Shown here in pieces: positions 27,603 to 35,773 of a stretch of 64,000 nt of DNA. Source of the DNA: Desulfurococcales archaeon. GTDB taxonomy: Archaea > Thermoproteota > Thermoprotei_A > Sulfolobales > Desulfurococcaceae. Location of the stretch: positions 62,001 through 126,000 of the forward strand of contig JALVYU010000031.1 of NCBI GenBank assembly GCA_027022365.1, read 5' to 3'. Position numbers and translations under genes: made by a program. Numbering within the stretch: the first letter of the stretch is position 1; the number at the start of each line of letters is the position of its first letter. The notes under the pieces were generated by a model. It worked only from the letters and a program-made list of their open reading frames with translations, was not told where the DNA came from and made no database searches.

Positions 27603-28889
27603 TTATCGCTTATTTAGACCTACGAGGCTGAGTATTCTCGGCAGTAACAGCCATCCATGCTCTATGATCCCCAGCCTGCCCTTAACGCATTTCTTTTCAA
27701 CAAGCTGATCCACGTCGTCGGGCTCTATCCCTGGGGCATAGACCGCCACCGGCACAGGATCGTCCGTGTGCGCTCCAACGCTCGGCGGTGTGGCATGGTC
27801 TGCCGTTACTAGGATCGCCGTATCGCTGGGCATTCTCTCGAGGAATGGCCGGACGAAATACTCGTCTATCTCCTCTATCCTCTTCTTCTTCAGCTCCATA
27901 TCCTTATCGTGTCCCGGCTCGTCGGGGCCCTTTAGGTGAACGTAGACAATGTTGTATGTTTTTAGGAGCTCGAGTGTTTTCTCAAGCCTTATACTGTAGA
28001 TCTCCTTTGGATCCCCTATTGGTGGTTCGAGGGCGACAGTGTCCGCACCAAAGATCCTTCCTATACCGATCTCCACGGGCATTTCTGCTAAAACGGCGAA
28101 TTTGAGACCGTATTTCTCGGGTAAGGGTGTTGCACGCGGTATTTTTCCGCCAGCGTCCCTGAGAAGTATGGCATTTGCTGGTAGTAGCCCCTTCTTCCTC
28201 CTAGCCTCATTTACCGGATGTTTATCTAGTATCTGGATGGCTTTCTCAGTGAATATGTTTGCTAGCTCAGCAGTTATCCTAGCCTCAATCGTGTCTTCAA
28301 GAGGCTCGATCTTCTTTACGTATGGCTCGAACTCCTTTACTGCTACACTGAGAAGACCTTTACGGGTGTACGCCGGATCACTATTGCCTACATATGGGCT
28401 GAGCCTATGTGTCCTACTACCTATTATGACTACCGCACGATGCCCAACAGTAGCCTTCACTCTTGCGTAGCCATCATATTTTCCGAGCTCCATACCGTCC
28501 AGCGCTTTTGCAAGTTCTCGGGCTTCCTCCGTCTCAAGGTTTCTGCCTACACGCCTATCAATCAACTTCTTGGTACTCGGATCTATTGTCGCGAAATTAG
28601 CTCTGAAAGCTATCTCGTAGCCCTCCTTAATGGTCATTCCCGCACCAACAGCCTCGATCGGCCCTCTCCCGGTATAGACTTCATGAGGATTATATCCTAT
28701 TATCGATATAACCGCCTCATCGCTCTCCGGCGCGATCCCTTTCTCAACAGTATACATGGCTCCACAAACACCGTCCCTAGCGATCCTGTCAAGACCCGGT
28801 TTATAGGCCTTCTCAAGAGTCGTCACAGGATCAGATAATCTATCAGCCATGCCGTCCAGAACTAGGTACAGAAGCCTCTTAACAACCAT
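27603..28889 (-). CDS. apgM: Archaeal-type cofactor-independent phosphoglycerate mutase, copy 1
   Basis: Interconverts 2- and 3-phosphoglycerate in glycolysis/gluconeogenesis. The 428-residue alkaline-phosphatase-superfamily protein has the N-terminal metal Asp (LYLVLDGMADR), the nucleophile region GIAPESDEAVISIIGY (Ser) with YTGRGPIEAVGAGM, HLKGPDEPGHD and TADHATP with the metal-binding Asp/His residues near the C terminus. All expected ligands appear present. A second copy is encoded at 34355-35647 with a Thr at the nucleophile position. It stands alone between the DUF134 gene and the TrmB/KaiC pair. Confidence 0.88.
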   Translation of the reverse strand: MVVKRLLYLVLDGMADRLSDPVTTLEKAYKPGLDRIARDGVCGAMYTVEKGIAPESDEAVISIIGYNPHEVYTGRGPIEAVGAGMTIKEGYEIAFRANFATIDPSTKKLIDRRVGRNLETEEARELAKALDGMELGKYDGYARVKATVGHRAVVIIGSRTHRLSPYVGNSDPAYTRKGLLSVAVKEFEPYVKKIEPLEDTIEARITAELANIFTEKAIQILDKHPVNEARRKKGLLPANAILLRDAGGKIPRATPLPEKYGLKFAVLAEMPVEIGIGRIFGADTVALEPPIGDPKEIYSIRLEKTLELLKTYNIVYVHLKGPDEPGHDKDMELKKKRIEEIDEYFVRPFLERMPSDTAILVTADHATPPSVGAHTDDPVPVAVYAPGIEPDDVDQLVEKKCVKGRLGIIEHGWLLLPRILSLVGLNKR

Positions 28890-28989
28890 AGCCGCAACAC
28901 CACATGATCATGTTTCTGGTCAAAGCTATATAGAATGGTGCTAATAACATTAATTCCTGTTTCCTAAAGAAAATATTGTAAGTAGTAAG

Positions 28990-29673
28990 CTAATCTAGAC
29001 ATCTCTGCATAATTTCGTGGAGAGGTCTAGACTGAGACACTATCATGTAATCATATCTTTTCTCGCCCGCAACCTCATAAATTATTGTTATCTCATCACA
29101 CGAGATCAGGATAGATGGTGTATCTATTATTTTCAAAGTCTTGATATGATCTTTGTAAAGGTCGAGGAAATCCCTTATTTCTGGATAATCTACGGCTTTT
29201 CTTGTATAATATATTGTGAAGTTATCTCTACCGGTCAAGAACCTCTTAAGATAGTTTAGAATGACGTGTCTTCCCCGTAGACAAATTGTTTTTTCACGGG
29301 GTACGAATCCCTTCTTATATTTCGATAATAGGTCCCGGATTCTCGCTATGTTTTCCTCTAGTTCTCTGAGTTTTGAGACAAGTTCTTCTCTTAGTTTGGC
29401 TATATAGTTTGAGAGCGCTATTCCTGGATCTAGGGCCTCGAATTTTAGGGGTCGACCCGGTATACTGGCTACGAAGCCCTTTTCCTCAAGCTGGTTCAGT
29501 ACATCGTATACCCTGGTATAAGGTATGCCGCTGAGATCGCTTATCTCGCTGGCCGTTGCGGTTCCTCTTATGAGTAATGTAAAGTATACTTTTGCCTCGT
29601 AGAGGGATAACCCTATTCTCTGTAATTCTTCTATAATAGTCTTTTCAGTACTCTTGACCAATCTCCGTGGCAC
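28990..29673 (-). CDS. TrmB-family transcription regulator
   Basis: A 227-residue regulator. Residues 10-75 are the TrmB winged HTH (LQRIGLSLYEAKVYFTLLIR, SEISDLSGIPYTRVYDVLNQ, LEEKGFVASIPGRPLKFEAL), followed by a coiled coil (about 95-120) and a C-terminal phospholipase-D-like effector region (to 227) shorter than in sugar-binding TrmB proteins. The start is GTG 29673 preceded by a G-rich stretch, 12 bases after the KaiC-like gene, so the two are co-transcribed. The two palindromes in the divergent promoter region (30501-30583) are its most likely targets; the adjacent transporter substrate would be the effector (inference). Confidence 0.85.
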   Translation of the reverse strand: MPRRLVKSTEKTIIEELQRIGLSLYEAKVYFTLLIRGTATASEISDLSGIPYTRVYDVLNQLEEKGFVASIPGRPLKFEALDPGIALSNYIAKLREELVSKLRELEENIARIRDLLSKYKKGFVPREKTICLRGRHVILNYLKRFLTGRDNFTIYYTRKAVDYPEIRDFLDLYKDHIKTLKIIDTPSILISCDEITIIYEVAGEKRYDYMIVSQSRPLHEIMQRCLD

Positions 29674-29685
29674 CCCCCTGCGTGT

Positions 29686-30429
29686 CTAGTATACGAGCTT
29701 CTCTGGCTTCTCGACGACGATACCGTTTCTTGTTAAGTGGTATTTGAACGGGTTCCTTGGATACCTTGTCTTGATACACCTTGTGATCTCGAAGTACCTA
29801 ATCGTCTGATCCAGATCTGATATCCTGTGGAGGGTGATGACCACGTCGGGCAACTGCTTCATAAAAGTCTCCGTATACTTGTCTTTGACTCCTTCTGTAT
29901 AGACCAGCATGTATATTCCATTGTATTTCCGGGCCTCAGCATGTAATCTCTCTATGAAGTATGGTATTTTCTCCTTCGGCGCCGTGAAGAATATAGTTGA
30001 AACATGGCTGAATACGAGCCGTGCTTTCTCTGCGTCCTCGAATACTTCTCTTTCCGCCATCACTATTGTCCTGATCACTTCGTCTAGGTCGAAGGGGTTT
30101 TCGAGAAGGTACTGGGCGCTGCTCTCAACACCCACTCTTGGAGAGAACCCATCTATAAATACTAGTTTATCCTCGTAGAAGAACTTCCGGGCATCCCATC
30201 CATACTTAGCCATGTTATCTAATAGGTCGTCGGGGAAAGCATCAACTGTAATGTATATTGCTTTCTCCCCGTGTTTTAGACCGTGATACATTATCTGTTG
30301 TGCGAACGTATTCTTATTAGTGCCTATGTCGCCTGTGATGAGCACAGAGGACGGTCTTGGGAACCCGCCTTCGAGGATCTCGTCTAGGGCGGGGATCCCT
30401 GTAGATGCACGATCTATGGTTTTGGCCAT
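29686..30429 (-). CDS. KaiC-like RecA-superfamily protein with degenerate nucleotide site
   Basis: A 247-residue single-domain protein with the KaiC/RAD55 opening RASTGIPALDEILEGGFPRP. The Walker A position reads GDIGTNKNT (33-41) instead of GxxGxGKT[T/S], so the Ser/Thr after the lysine is Asn. The Walker B region reads RLVFSHVSTIFF, without the usual Asp. The fold is otherwise complete to the C terminus (TRYPRNPFKYHLTRNGIVV). It may be an inactive nucleotide or ligand sensor. It is the first gene of an operon with TrmB and diverges from the DASS transporter. A TATA-like element (about 30458-30473) precedes ATG 30429. Confidence 0.82.
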   Translation of the reverse strand: MAKTIDRASTGIPALDEILEGGFPRPSSVLITGDIGTNKNTFAQQIMYHGLKHGEKAIYITVDAFPDDLLDNMAKYGWDARKFFYEDKLVFIDGFSPRVGVESSAQYLLENPFDLDEVIRTIVMAEREVFEDAEKARLVFSHVSTIFFTAPKEKIPYFIERLHAEARKYNGIYMLVYTEGVKDKYTETFMKQLPDVVITLHRISDLDQTIRYFEITRCIKTRYPRNPFKYHLTRNGIVVEKPEKLVY

Positions 30430-30500
30430 GACCTACTACCATACCTTATATTTTAAATAATATTTTAAATATCCCTGTATTAATGCTGTGCTGTTTTTGT

Positions 30501-30583
30501 TTTTCACTCAATAGTGAAAATCTTATATATTGAAGGAATACAGATCATAATATAATAGAGCTATTTTCACTACAGGGTGAAAA
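30501..30583. promoter_or_regulatory. Twin palindromic operators between KaiC/TrmB and the DASS transporter
   Basis: TTTTCACT-CAAT-AGTGAAAA (30501-30520) is a perfect 8-4-8 palindrome. TTTTCACT-ACAG-GGTGAAAA (30564-30583) is the same element with one change. Their centres are 63 bp apart, six turns of B-DNA, so dimers would bind the same face. AT-rich boxes (CTTATATATT and ATAATATAATA) lie between them, and the second copy covers the predicted transcript start of the transporter gene. Confidence 0.7.
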
Positions 30584-32067
30584 GTGTCTTGTCGATAGCC
30601 AAGGACAAGCCTAAGAGCGAGAAAATCCTAAACATGATCGGGTTCCCGATAGCACTAATAGTGTTCGTCGCCATTCTTCTCATGCCAACGCCTGCAGGCC
30701 TCACGGCCCAGGGTCAACGAGCACTGGCGGTGTTCTGGCTGGCCTTCGTCCTATGGCTGACAACACCCATACCAGTCTGGCTTACATCGATGTTAGCAAT
30801 AGTTCTTCTAGCACTGACTGGTGGATGGGACTACAAGCAAGCATTCTACCAGTTCGGACAAGAAGTCATATGGCTAATGGTCGCCGCATTCATAATCGCG
30901 AGTGCTCTCGAGAGGAGCGGTATTGGTAAAAGAATCGCTTATAGCATGGCATTATGGTTCGGTCGTTCAGCAAAAATGACTCTATTGGGCTTCATAATAC
31001 TAAACATAGTCCTAGCATTCGTTGTCCCAAGCACTACAGCACGTGCAGCCATAGTTTTACCAATAGCTCTTCTCATGGCTCAGGCGTATGGCGCCAAGCC
31101 CGGTGAGAGCAAGTTCGGCAAACTCCTCATGCTACAGCAGCCGATAGCGAACAACCTAGCCACGGCGATGATATTAACAGCTACAGCTCCACAGATAATT
31201 GCATGGGGCTTCATATCGACTCTGGCCGGCGTAGAGGTCCCATGGATCACATGGCTCATTGCTCAGGCACCAATAGTATTGATAACATTATTCCTGATGT
31301 GGCTCGTCGGCCTCAAACTATGGAAGCCTGAGGTCGATAAGCCTCTAGGGGGAATCGATAAGATAAGGGAGGAGCTAAGAAAGCTTGGGCCTATGACCAG
31401 AGAAGAGAAGACAGCGCTAGCGATATTCGCCCTAGTAGTATTCCTATGGGCTACCGACAAGATACAGCCACTCATGTTCTGCGGCCTCAAGATACCTTAT
31501 AGCGTGGCAGCAGTGATAGGTGCGATACTATTGTTCATGCCGAAAATAGGGCCTCTCAAGAGTTGGAAAGACGCCAAGATACCGTGGGACCTAATGGTGT
31601 TCAGTGCCGGAGCATATGCTGTAGGCATGGCGTTAGAGGATACTGGCGCGGCCAAGTGGATGGCCACCGCTCTGATCAACGCCACAGGGCTCTCACAGGG
31701 CGTACACCCGTATGTCGCGTACGTTATCCTAGTAGGCATAATGATGTACAGCCACATAATATTCAGTAGCAAGACGGTTAGAACGGTAATATTTATACCG
31801 TTGTACATCATACTTGCCGAGAGCCTCGGCATACCTCCAGTAATGATAGCGCTGCCTGCTGCATTCACTATTGCCTGGACCATAAGCCTGCCGTTCAACT
31901 GTAAGCCTAACCTAATATACTATGGTACCGGATACTTCAATGTCACAGACGAGTTCCTATACGGTATCATAACGTGTACGATCGGCTATATACTGTACCT
32001 GACGATTGGCTGGGCATGGTTCAACTTCCTAGGAGGAATAGGAATGATACCTGGCTGGACAGGGTGA
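30577..32067 (+). CDS. DASS (SLC13) family anion/dicarboxylate transporter
   Basis: A 496-residue ion-coupled transporter for dicarboxylates, citrate, sulfate or similar anions. About 12 membrane segments are visible, with the family features LVWL...TTPIPVWLTSMLAIVLLAL, the substrate-binding hairpin tip VVPSTTARAAIVLPIAL (about residues 145-161) and a second-half repeat ending FNCKPNLIYYGTGYF. The exact substrate cannot be read from the sequence. GTG 30577 lies inside the second operator; TTG 30589 behind GGTGA is an alternative start. The following gene, 6 bases later, encodes a membrane-anchored extracellular protein that may be an accessory subunit. Confidence 0.88.
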   Translation: MKSVLSIAKDKPKSEKILNMIGFPIALIVFVAILLMPTPAGLTAQGQRALAVFWLAFVLWLTTPIPVWLTSMLAIVLLALTGGWDYKQAFYQFGQEVIWLMVAAFIIASALERSGIGKRIAYSMALWFGRSAKMTLLGFIILNIVLAFVVPSTTARAAIVLPIALLMAQAYGAKPGESKFGKLLMLQQPIANNLATAMILTATAPQIIAWGFISTLAGVEVPWITWLIAQAPIVLITLFLMWLVGLKLWKPEVDKPLGGIDKIREELRKLGPMTREEKTALAIFALVVFLWATDKIQPLMFCGLKIPYSVAAVIGAILLFMPKIGPLKSWKDAKIPWDLMVFSAGAYAVGMALEDTGAAKWMATALINATGLSQGVHPYVAYVILVGIMMYSHIIFSSKTVRTVIFIPLYIILAESLGIPPVMIALPAAFTIAWTISLPFNCKPNLIYYGTGYFNVTDEFLYGIITCTIGYILYLTIGWAWFNFLGGIGMIPGWTG

Positions 32068-32073
32068 TAAGCC

Positions 32074-32997
32074 ATGAGGAACCTGATAATAGCCTACATA
32101 CTCCTCGTCGCAGTAATATTCTCGATGATATTGCCCCTGGCATCATCGGGAACAGTGATAAGAGGAGTACTGTATAGGTTCGACGTACAAAAGATCGTTA
32201 AACTAACGCATAGTGGAAAGAGCTATGGAGGAATAGTCTTCTACCTCACCGTAACCTTCAGGATAGCGAACTATACTGATACAAACCTAGTAGTACCGCT
32301 AGGAATACCGTTCGTGACATCCTCCAAGTACAAAGGAGCAGTTGATCCGAAACTCGTGTCATACCAGGTGATCTATGAGGGCAAGAACATAGCGGAGTCA
32401 GCAACATTCATCTACAAACCACTCTCAAGAGTTGAGATTAAGCTATCCAAGCCTATAACAGGGCAGGACTACGCTATTGTAAACATAACAGTACTAGGAA
32501 CAGTAAAGTCGACCTCTAAGCTATATGTGACAAAGGATTATAAGTATTATAAAGACTACAAGCCAGCCTCCAACAAGATCATGGCCCTGGACATCATTAA
32601 CTTCTGGTACAGCACAACATGGTGCACAGACACGATCAATGGAGAGAAGGTCCCCGGTATAAGAGTAGTAGTTCTAGCACCCAAGGGTTGGCAGATACTC
32701 TACGCAAGAACATCATTATCTTCCAAGCTAAGATACATGGACATACACAAGATATATGAGAAGGACGATAGACAAGTAGTAGAGCTATGGTATCTCAGCT
32801 CAAAAACGATCAAGCCTACTAGCTTCAAGCCAGGTTCAGTATTCACTATCGAGATAGGCTTCACACCATTCTCAGACTACCGCAGCCCCGTAACACTAGC
32901 AGTATCAATAATCCTACTGATCCTAGCCGGGTTCTTCGCATGGTACTATAGAGACATATGGAAATACACGACACGCAAGACTAGTCTACAAAAATAA
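32074..32997 (+). CDS. Membrane-anchored extracellular protein linked to the DASS transporter
   Basis: A 307-residue protein with an N-terminal signal sequence (residues 3-24, NLIIAYILLVAVIFSMILPL), an extracellular beta-rich domain of about 245 residues (several sequons; one cysteine in the segment STTWCTDTING), and a C-terminal membrane helix (about 277-298, PVTLAVSIILLILAGFFAWY) with a basic cytoplasmic tail. GGTGA lies six bases before ATG 32074. Only 6 bases separate it from the transporter gene, implying a shared function, perhaps substrate capture or complex stability. No known family recognised. Confidence 0.75.
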   Translation: MRNLIIAYILLVAVIFSMILPLASSGTVIRGVLYRFDVQKIVKLTHSGKSYGGIVFYLTVTFRIANYTDTNLVVPLGIPFVTSSKYKGAVDPKLVSYQVIYEGKNIAESATFIYKPLSRVEIKLSKPITGQDYAIVNITVLGTVKSTSKLYVTKDYKYYKDYKPASNKIMALDIINFWYSTTWCTDTINGEKVPGIRVVVLAPKGWQILYARTSLSSKLRYMDIHKIYEKDDRQVVELWYLSSKTIKPTSFKPGSVFTIEIGFTPFSDYRSPVTLAVSIILLILAGFFAWYYRDIWKYTTRKTSLQK

Positions 32998-33004
32998 TTT
33001 TTTC
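32995..33004 (+). terminator. Oligo-T terminator after the DASS operon
   Basis: The stop codon is followed at once by TTTTTTTCC, a T tract suited to archaeal termination. The next gene then needs its own transcription start or read-through. Confidence 0.4.
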
Positions 33005-33046
33005 CTTCATAGAGCACTTTATCACCGCGATGGAGGTGCCTGAGGC

Positions 33047-34348
33047 ACGGAGCTCACATTTCTCGGAGGATACCGTGAACAGGGGCGCTCCTCTCTCCTA
33101 ATATCTACCAGGAGGACAAACGTTCTCTTAGATGCTGGTATTAAGAAGGAGTATAGCGGTAATTACTACGGCGTCCCCCCGTACCTGGACATGGTTGATC
33201 CCGAGAATCTCGACGCGGTATTTGTGTCGCATCTACATGAAGACCATATGGCTATGATCCCCTACCTGGTTAGGAGAGGATATAGTGAACCAATATACAT
33301 GACAAGGCCAACCCGAGAACTAGGCGTCAAACAATGGGTTAAATGGGCAAGGATACTCGAGGAGGATGGACGCAGTCTATACAGCGTAACCGACGCCGTT
33401 AATGCTGAGAGGCTGATCAGGGAGGTAAGGTATGGCGATGTAATAGAAATAGGGGATCTAAGGATCACTATAGGCCTCGCAGGACATGCTCTAGGTTCAG
33501 CCCACTTCCTGGTAGAGGAAAAGAAGGGAAAGAAACTCCTATACCTCGCAGATGTGAATAAGGGATCCCATGTTCTCCGAGACTTTGAAGAACCCAAGAC
33601 CAGACCTGACGCAATGATCATTAATGCTTCTTATGGAGACAATATCATAGACATGGAGGCGACTAAGAGGAAGCTCGCCGAGATACTGGGTCATACTCTC
33701 CTTGAGGGCTCTGTCCTGTTCCCGGTAACTCCGACTGGTAGGGCCCAGGAAACACTTATGATCCTATATAGTATCAGAGATAAGATCAAGGACACAACGA
33801 TAATAGCTACAGAAAAGATCAGGAAAGCCACCGAAACCCTTAACAAATACCAGGGCGAGCTGAAGGAGACATATATGGAACAAATAAGAGAGGTTCTTGA
33901 AGACATTGTCTTTGCTAAGGAGGAGGAAATACTCGAAGCCGCTGGAAAGCCTGGCTACATTATCTTGGCGGAAGACCTCATGATGATGGGGTTCTCCCGC
34001 CGTATATTCATGGAGATAAAGGATGACCCGAGATCAGCGGTCATACACACTGGCTACAAGGCCCCGGGCACGTTCGCAAGACAACTAGTAATGGCTAGGA
34101 ATACAATGTGCTTCACATGGAATAGTGAACCACTAGTCTTTAGAACAAGGGTTTACGACATACCGATCAAGATGCACTTCGATCTGCATGACAACATATC
34201 CCTGGTTGAAAGTATGGGTAGGCCTCTCCTAATCCTCCATCACGGTGAAGAGCCACGTAGCCTGAGATTGGCCCTAGCCCTCTCAAACTATGTGGAACCC
34301 AAGCGTATCCTGCTTCCAAGTACCCCCTCAAAAACATTCTTGGGGTGA
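33047..34348 (+). CDS. MBL-fold (beta-CASP-like) metallohydrolase, apparent ACG start
   Basis: Metallo-beta-lactamase-fold protein related to the RNase J/CPSF nucleases. The metal motif HLHEDH is near residue 63, GHALGSAHF and YLADVNKGS give further ligands, and a beta-CASP-like insertion and C-terminal His (LILHHGEE) follow. The frame is open from a TGA at 33041-33043. The conserved N terminus (ELTFLGGYREQGRSS...LLDAGIKK) begins at 33050, and no ATG, GTG or TTG precedes it. GGAGGTG (33032-33038) is eight bases before ACG at 33047, exactly where a start belongs. Either ACG is used, or the base is a mutation or sequencing error. ATG 33191 would remove 48 conserved residues. Confidence 0.8.
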   Translation, partial: TELTFLGGYREQGRSSLLISTRRTNVLLDAGIKKEYSGNYYGVPPYLDMVDPENLDAVFVSHLHEDHMAMIPYLVRRGYSEPIYMTRPTRELGVKQWVKWARILEEDGRSLYSVTDAVNAERLIREVRYGDVIEIGDLRITIGLAGHALGSAHFLVEEKKGKKLLYLADVNKGSHVLRDFEEPKTRPDAMIINASYGDNIIDMEATKRKLAEILGHTLLEGSVLFPVTPTGRAQETLMILYSIRDKIKDTTIIATEKIRKATETLNKYQGELKETYMEQIREVLEDIVFAKEEEILEAAGKPGYIILAEDLMMMGFSRRIFMEIKDDPRSAVIHTGYKAPGTFARQLVMARNTMCFTWNSEPLVFRTRVYDIPIKMHFDLHDNISLVESMGRPLLILHHGEEPRSLRLALALSNYVEPKRILLPSTPSKTFLG

Positions 34349-34354
34349 CCTGCT

Positions 34355-35647
34355 TTGCCCAAGCCCAAATGGGAGGCCAAGAAAACATATAGAGCCATAA
34401 TCCTCATCCAGGACGGAGTAGGAGATAGACCTGTCCCAGAGCTAGGCGGCCGCACGCCCCTCGAGGTCGCCCGGAAACCACACATGGACACAATAGCATT
34501 GCTCGGAGCAACCGGCCTCATGGACTTGATTGAACCCGGTGTACGGCCCGGCACCGATACCGGACACCTAGCTTTGTTCGGCTACGACCCATACAAGTAC
34601 TATCCGGGAAGAGGACCGCTCGAGGCCGCTGGTATAGGTGTACCCCTTAGGCCCGGCGATGTCGCGCTGAGATGCAATATAGCAACAGTAGAGGAGAGGA
34701 ATGGAGAACTAATAGTAATTGATAGACGTGCGGGCAGGATCAGGGGCGATCATGTCAAAATACTTGTCGAGGCACTAAACAAGGCGATAAAAGAAGTAGA
34801 TGGTGTGAAGATAGAGTTCTACCCCGCCACCGAACACCGCGTAGTAATGGTTCTCCGCGGAGAAGGCCTTTCACCCAAGATATCTGACAGCGACCCTGGC
34901 ACGGCTATGGAGGGACACCCGATAAGAAAGGTCGTACCCCTCGACGACACCGAGGAGGCCAGGAGAACCGCAGAGATAGTCAATAAGGTGGTAAGACTGG
35001 CACATCAGGTACTCAGAAACCATCCGCTCAACAAGGAGCGCGTTGAGAAGGGCTTGCTCCCCGGCAACGCCATAATAACTCGTGGAGCTGGAATGATTCC
35101 GAGAGACCTGAAGCCATACCACGAGGTATTCAAGACTAAAGCCTATGTCGTTGCCGAGGAGGCAACCATAGTTGGGATCGCGAGGATCCTCGGCATGGAT
35201 GCAGAGATACCGCCCGGCGCCACAGCGACTCTAGATACGGATCTAGACTCAATACTGGAGTCAGCTCTCAAAGCATGGAAGCAGGGCTACGAGATAGTAT
35301 ACATACATGTAAAAGGCCCAGACATAGCCGGGCATGATGCAGACCCTCACGGCAAGATAAAGATAATCGAGAGGACAGACCAGATGCTGGGAAAACTAAT
35401 GAAGCAGATAGACTTGAGAAACACCGTGATAGCCCTAGCAGCAGACCACTCGACACCATGTACAGTGAGAGACCACAGTGGGGATCCAGTTCCAGTAGCA
35501 ATATATGCGCCAACAATACGCAGAGACCACACAAGAAAATACGACGAATACACATGTAGCCAGGGAATGCTGGGAAGAATAAGGGGAACGGATCTCTTAA
35601 AGATAATACTAGACCAGATGAACAAACCCCTAAAATGGGGTGCGTAA
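34355..35647 (+). CDS. apgM: Archaeal-type cofactor-independent phosphoglycerate mutase, copy 2
   Basis: A 430-residue paralogue of the enzyme at 27603. Metal-site segments are intact: IILIQDGVGDRP, HVKGPDIAGHDAD and LAADHSTPC. The nucleophile loop reads GVRPGTDTGHLALFGY, with Thr in place of Ser; both occur in this superfamily. YYPGRGPLEAAGIGV matches the substrate loop of the family. The start is TTG 34355 behind GGGGTGA, 6 bases after the MBL-fold gene, so the two are likely co-transcribed. Having two copies suggests division of labour or that one uses another phospho-substrate. Confidence 0.85.
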   Translation: MPKPKWEAKKTYRAIILIQDGVGDRPVPELGGRTPLEVARKPHMDTIALLGATGLMDLIEPGVRPGTDTGHLALFGYDPYKYYPGRGPLEAAGIGVPLRPGDVALRCNIATVEERNGELIVIDRRAGRIRGDHVKILVEALNKAIKEVDGVKIEFYPATEHRVVMVLRGEGLSPKISDSDPGTAMEGHPIRKVVPLDDTEEARRTAEIVNKVVRLAHQVLRNHPLNKERVEKGLLPGNAIITRGAGMIPRDLKPYHEVFKTKAYVVAEEATIVGIARILGMDAEIPPGATATLDTDLDSILESALKAWKQGYEIVYIHVKGPDIAGHDADPHGKIKIIERTDQMLGKLMKQIDLRNTVIALAADHSTPCTVRDHSGDPVPVAIYAPTIRRDHTRKYDEYTCSQGMLGRIRGTDLLKIILDQMNKPLKWGA

Positions 35648-35653
35648 ATACCA

Positions 35654-35662
35654 TGATTTTTT
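35654..35662 (+). terminator. Oligo-T terminator after the phosphoglycerate mutase gene
   Basis: A run of six T residues lies within ten bases after the TAA stop codon. It separates this operon from the Trp/Tyr-rich cluster that has its own promoter. Confidence 0.4.
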
Positions 35663-35773
35663 AACATTTCCAGCCAGATAGTTCGATTCTGCGTGACATT
35701 CTATTTATGTTATATAAAGAACTGGATGTGAGATCAGGCGGGTTCTTTGTCCTATTAGTGTGTTTCTGTGATA

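Follow-up and report, generated by a model that had tools for sequence, protein, structure and literature searches.

Among the closest described counterparts of the locus analyzed here is P. furiosus TrmB at malE (TM operon), where a protein with the same Pfam winged helix-turn-helix (HTH) domain lies beside the transporter it controls and represses it from a palindrome at the BRE/TATA box, TACT-N3-AGTA (PMC4158304). TrmB operators coincide with the BRE/TATA box or with the point where transcription begins, and those downstream of the promoter confer repression (PMC4158304, PMC4706686). KaiC-like ATPases, in turn, have been proposed as archaeal signaling hubs, inactivated iKaiC forms included (Makarova et al. 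2017, as cited in PMC5847659). The window, that is, the whole 64,000-nucleotide stretch of Desulfurococcales DNA analyzed, carries a palindrome that is likely the operator of an adjacent short TrmB-family protein, which would shut the promoter of a DASS transporter until a signal arrives, with a KaiC-like protein as the probable carrier of that signal. Sequence comparison supports the operator reading well, and it makes the link to TrmB strong but circumstantial, because the motif accompanies the TrmB-KaiC pair whichever of two unrelated transporters lies next to it and is missing from genomes that lack the pair.

Domain searches agree with the original prediction that genes for a TrmB and a KaiC-like protein are divergent from a DASS gene. 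The TrmB-family regulator (28990-29673, minus strand, 227 residues) matches the TrmB-type winged HTH (PF01978, 5.2e-25, 87.5 bits against a cut-off of 25.6), while its scores against the NCBIfam TrmB, TrmBL1 and TrmBL2 equivalogs (75, 73 and 52 bits) fall below the respective cut-offs of 600, 650 and 530. Its architecture is TrmBL2-like, comprising the winged HTH, a coiled coil and a C-terminal domain that is predicted to be folded; the predicted model (mean pLDDT 85, pTM 0.45) combines a winged HTH with a long helix and a small alpha/beta domain. Orthologs show almost no variation in the recognition helix, GIPYTRVYDVL, which keeps the Tyr50/Asp51 pair of P. furiosus TrmB (RVYD aligned; Y55/D56 invariant), which is important in the recognition helix of that protein (PMC4158304). 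The effector-binding domain PF11495 gave no match at 0.001 in the window TrmB, nor at 0.01 in two orthologs; therefore, this TrmB may not bind sugar itself.

The KaiC-like protein (29686-30429, minus strand) is identified by the KaiC domain (PF06745, 1.5e-33) and by similarity to PDB KaiC chains (5e-33). The signature of an active KaiC ATPase (GxxGxGK[ST], the Glu pair and the Walker B Asp) is absent: the window protein has GDIGTNKN in Walker A, VDAF for FEES and FSH for IDS. Across loci, the KaiC-like partners carry VDxx at the catalytic Glu pair and FSH at the Walker B Asp-Ser, and Walker A differs by class, reading GTNKN or GSKKN in loci with a DASS transporter, with GTGK[ST] retained in loci with an ABC transporter. 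These partners lack catalytic residues and are therefore probably not ordinary ATPases.

The twin palindromes described in the original prediction are found where it placed them, between kaiC and the DASS gene. Predicted operator site 1 (30501-30520, unstranded), TTTTCACT-CAAT-AGTGAAAA (in full TTTTCACTCAATAGTGAAAA), is a perfect palindrome, with 8 of 8 complementary pairs around a 4-nt spacer, and represents an extra copy. Predicted operator site 2 (30564-30583, also unstranded), TTTTCACT-ACAG-GGTGAAAA (in full TTTTCACTACAGGGTGAAAA), has 7 of 8 complementary pairs and occupies the position that is conserved in other loci. The site centers (30510.5 and 30573.5) are 63.0 bp apart, or 6.0 turns at 10.5 bp per turn, again as predicted. 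Scanning the window for the palindrome pattern with up to three mismatches returned only these two sites (shuffles average 0.62 matches), and throughout the 1.74-Mb genome TTTTCACTNNNNAGTGAAAA occurs at up to two mismatches only at sites 1 and 2, with two further places at three. When the intergenic region was dinucleotide-shuffled 1,500 times, no perfect match arose, and the best shuffle had three mismatches. A separate inverted repeat with mismatches, ATATTTTAAATA-A-TATTTTAAATAT (30448-30472), lies in the probable kaiC promoter and is possibly just AT-rich promoter DNA.

The accompanying claim that the sites lie around the promoter boxes of the transporter holds for the probable TATA box of the DASS operon (TTATATAT, about 30523-30530, plus strand, assigned by eye from consensus reasoning), which falls between the two sites, but not for site 2, which is not a promoter element and probably lies in the 5' leader. 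Transcription of the DASS operon is expected from sequence to start near 30550-30555. The Shine-Dalgarno sequence of the DASS gene, GGTGA (30576-30580, plus strand), is contained within the right arm of site 2, whose center is 15.5 bp upstream of the TTG start. This TTG (30589) is probably the true start of the gene; GTG 30577 is unlikely because the corresponding GTG in G324, where the same GGTGA occurs, is out of frame with the TTG start. A bacterial promoter/terminator scan detected no terminator and three weak sigma-70-like matches where one was expected, a result that is not meaningful for an archaeon.

Repression rather than activation is favored because the positions of the sites fit the known rules for TrmB, by which a site at BRE/TATA or downstream represses and a site clear upstream activates. 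With one site on each side, the window could also hold a two-way switch, in which TrmB activates DASS or kaiC-trmB from site 1 and represses from site 2, just as P. furiosus TrmBL1 activates upstream of BRE/TATA and represses downstream (PMC4706686). Such a switch is unlikely: instead of lying clear of the probable BRE of the DASS promoter, site 1 touches or overlaps it with its right arm, and the upstream site is found in this genome only, every other locus having a single site. The same distribution gives no support to the cooperative binding to twin sites put forward in the original prediction, which is possible over six helical turns in this genome but is rejected as the general mechanism and is not a conserved property.

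Site 2 could instead act as RNA, forming a hairpin in the DASS leader that hides the Shine-Dalgarno sequence and works as a translational switch or thermometer. A U-G pair completes an 8-bp stem, which at -6.1 kcal/mol (37 °C) outscores all 200 shuffles and is preserved in G072 and G324; however, modeling at 85 °C, close to where such archaea are likely to grow, leaves this stem unfolded. Furthermore, site 1 is not part of the mRNA, as it precedes the probable TATA box, and the site overlaps the probable TATA box in the three loci with an ABC transporter. A hairpin as the main function is thus rejected for site 1 and for the ABC loci, and for site 2 we regard it as improbable.

Whole genomes were searched with the TrmB, KaiC-like and DASS proteins. 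Eight archaeal genomes proved to carry the TrmB-KaiC pair, and all eight close TrmB homologs are encoded beside this KaiC. Genomic neighborhood analysis distinguishes two classes of loci. In four genomes (the window genome, G072, G146 and G324, the last from a different class of archaea than the window genome), the pair is divergent from a DASS operon, and the same genes lie downstream of DASS, encoding a membrane protein, a beta-CASP protein and a phosphoglycerate mutase. In three others (G059, of the same genus as the window, G066 and G067), it is divergent from the operon of an ABC transporter that resembles 2-aminoethylphosphonate-type PhnSUT systems, with scores below curated cut-offs. 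The contig of the eighth, G065, is broken upstream of kaiC, leaving the gap unreadable; G065, G066 and G067 belong to a single genus and are not fully independent. A phylum-wide search for further copies added only G324 and G513. The latter (L081, 5754-6494) encodes the same unusual type of KaiC, with LSH in place of Walker B and GVGKN in Walker A, and has neither a TrmB neighbor nor the palindrome. In the ABC cassette of G059 (L076, L102), a 465-residue protein (LIDGEHY...) adjoins a phosphoglycerate mutase; it has no Pfam or NCBIfam match and may resemble cyclic 2,3-diphosphoglycerate synthetase. G066 (L077) encodes the beginning of a similar protein.

Conservation of the palindrome at orthologous loci had been set beforehand as the test of the original prediction, and the palindrome is indeed present in six of the seven readable gaps, centered about 12-33 bp before the transporter start. 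With the promoter boxes placed by eye, it coincides with the BRE/TATA box of the transporter gene or with the start of its transcript. Besides the window, the sites read TATTCACT-TGTT-GGTGAAAA in G072, TTTTTCAC-GCTAG-GTGAAAAA in G324 (with the spacing between conserved halves 1 bp shorter), TTTTAACT-CTAG-AGTTAAAA in G059, TTTTAACT-AGTG-AGTGAAAA in G066 and TTTTAACT-CTGG-AGTGAAAA in G067, and the seventh gap, G146, has only a degenerate site, TACTAACT-AGTA-GGTGAAAA. The shuffle test on the seven gaps used the window motif as fixed in advance and is not circular: five gaps contain the motif with 0-2 mismatches out of 16, a match equaled by none of 1,500 shuffles. The G324 gap matches once the spacer is allowed to vary by one (0 of 600 shuffles as good), and G146 has three mismatches (8 of 1,500 shuffles as good), its recognition helix being unchanged despite the degenerate site. 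The pooled motif TTTTMACTNNNNRGTKAAAA is matched exactly five times in the eight pair-bearing genomes, each time between KaiC and the transporter, and not once in 20 relatives that lack the pair, four of them of the same genus, although these counts are partly circular in that M and K of the motif were picked after viewing the ABC sites. The best match of G072 to the pooled motif is also in the KaiC-transporter gap.

Half of each conserved site falls on a general signal (TATA or Shine-Dalgarno), as would be expected had the palindromes arisen by chance in AT-rich intergenic DNA from such common signals. In the DASS class, the right arm GGTGAAAA is accounted for by the GGTGA preceding the TTG start; in the ABC class, the left arm TTTTTAACT occupies, as judged by eye, the expected place of the TATA box, ∼30-40 bp ahead of the ATG. 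Because the right arm overlaps the Shine-Dalgarno signal, the left arm was tested alone, and with the right arm taken as given its chance probability is 5e-5 in the window, 0.002 in G072, 4e-4 in G324 and 0.06 in G146, so that the left arms are improbable even with the Shine-Dalgarno sequence granted. Together with the shuffles, the whole-genome scans and the control genomes, this leads us to reject a chance origin as extremely improbable. Deviations from perfect symmetry would instead reflect overlaid signals, Shine-Dalgarno in the DASS class and TATA in the ABC class; site 1, which is free of both, is the perfect palindrome.

Many winged-HTH dimers bind palindromes of 16-20 bp, and another cellular regulator (e.g. 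MarR-like or Lrp-like) might be the protein that binds here, leaving TrmB as a bystander. Against this stands the distribution of the palindrome, which in the genomes scanned, the 20 relatives without the pair included, occurs solely beside the TrmB-KaiC pair and persists where KaiC and the transporter have been swapped and TrmB kept. We therefore give a different regulator little credence.

The swap is seen at a single chromosomal site. The original prediction described a self-contained three-part module; the unit is larger, an island of ∼6.8 kb (28960-35770, unstranded, ends approximate; L105, L106) that adds a membrane protein, a beta-CASP protein and a phosphoglycerate mutase. The DASS-family anion symporter (30589-32067, or from 30577, plus strand; PF00939; TIGR00785, 263 bits against a cut-off of 198.6) is always followed in DASS-class loci by a protein (32074-32997, plus strand) with no Pfam or NCBIfam match, in which an N-terminal signal-like segment and a C-terminal membrane segment can be discerned by eye. 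Next are a metallo-beta-lactamase/beta-CASP protein (33056-34348, plus strand, by homology in frame) and, as the last island gene, a second copy of 2,3-bisphosphoglycerate-independent phosphoglycerate mutase (34355-35647, plus strand). In the beta-CASP gene, in-frame homology (TFLGGYREQGRSS...) begins at ∼33056 and the first in-frame ATG, GTG or TTG is at 33191; either the start codon is non-standard or the 5' end has been damaged. Two phosphoglycerate-mutase-like proteins (27603-28889 and 34355-35647) flank the module, the former scoring highest, below cut-off, against the phosphonoformyl-transferase model PhpG.

The island is absent from the same site in the close same-genus relatives G060 and G063, where the gene at ∼35,800 comes immediately after that of the first phosphoglycerate mutase. 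G059 has at this site a TrmB 68% identical to that of the window and a second mutase (the last gene) 88% identical, with a KaiC just 42% identical and a transporter of the ABC type. Phylogenetic trees concur: the TrmB proteins of the window and G059 cluster together (support 100/100), and the KaiC of G059 clusters with the ABC-class KaiCs (support 100/99, with a program warning of long branches for G059 and G513). The type of KaiC goes with the transporter and TrmB goes with the chromosome, and the predicted operator is present in both forms. Such a pattern is to be expected with TrmB as the reader of the operator and a KaiC suited to the transporter or to its signal. A more speculative reading is a plug-in design, in which TrmB and its operator would be a fixed socket, each transporter would be exchanged at one site as a unit with the catalytically dead KaiC sensor that matches it, and the form of KaiC would set which transporter's signal TrmB obeys.

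For the operator reading, the proposed mechanism is as follows. A TrmB dimer would grip TTTTCACT-N4-AGTGAAAA with its two winged helices. Bound at site 2, it would mask the beginning of the transcribed region along with the ribosome-binding site and, at site 1, the edge of the BRE, such that the DASS promoter would stay shut until a signal frees TrmB. Site 2 would be the ancestral, conserved operator, and site 1 an additional copy, perhaps for tighter repression or for autoregulation of kaiC-trmB. The signal is probably carried by the KaiC-like partner, which always accompanies TrmB and apparently cannot hydrolyze ATP in the usual manner; we infer modulation by KaiC, as we do repression.

To our knowledge, almost no targets of short TrmB-family proteins are known in Crenarchaeota, and the role of KaiC-like proteins in archaeal signaling is a proposal with few concrete outputs. 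The present locus is compact, with candidates for the operator, the DNA-binding protein, the signal carrier and the controlled gene all together, and it includes a swap experiment already done by nature. With it, purified proteins and a DNA fragment of 120 bp are enough to put the idea of KaiC as a hub to the test.

Compared with P. furiosus TrmB at malE, the operator sequence and spacing differ (PMC4158304), and the window protein has a KaiC-like partner in place of a recognizable TrmB effector-binding domain. The glycolytic motif of TrmBL1/Tgr in Thermococcales, TATCAC-N5-GTGATA, shares the half-site TCAC/GTGA, and its sites likewise occur up- and downstream of promoters (PMC4706686). The motif as such is not reproduced: the DASS class has TCAC-N6-GTGA (N5 in G324), with different, A/T-rich outer arms. 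Unlike the global regulator TrmBL1/Tgr, the present system is local, with one locus per genome. TrmBL2 (PDB 5BPD, 5BOX) is the best full-length fold match to the predicted model (winged HTH, long helix and C-terminal domain) at a TM-score of just 0.4-0.5; it is described as a chromatin protein, whereas a site-specific operator is predicted here. As in the KaiC hub proposal, in the form in which it is cited, a KaiC-fold protein with missing catalytic residues is found beside a DNA-binding regulator. No description of a fixed TrmB-KaiC pairing with a conserved operator and swappable transporters was found in the portions of the TrmB and KaiC literature searched. TrmB operators are already known as a kind, and the predicted one described here would represent a new variant, with KaiC pairing and swappable transporters.
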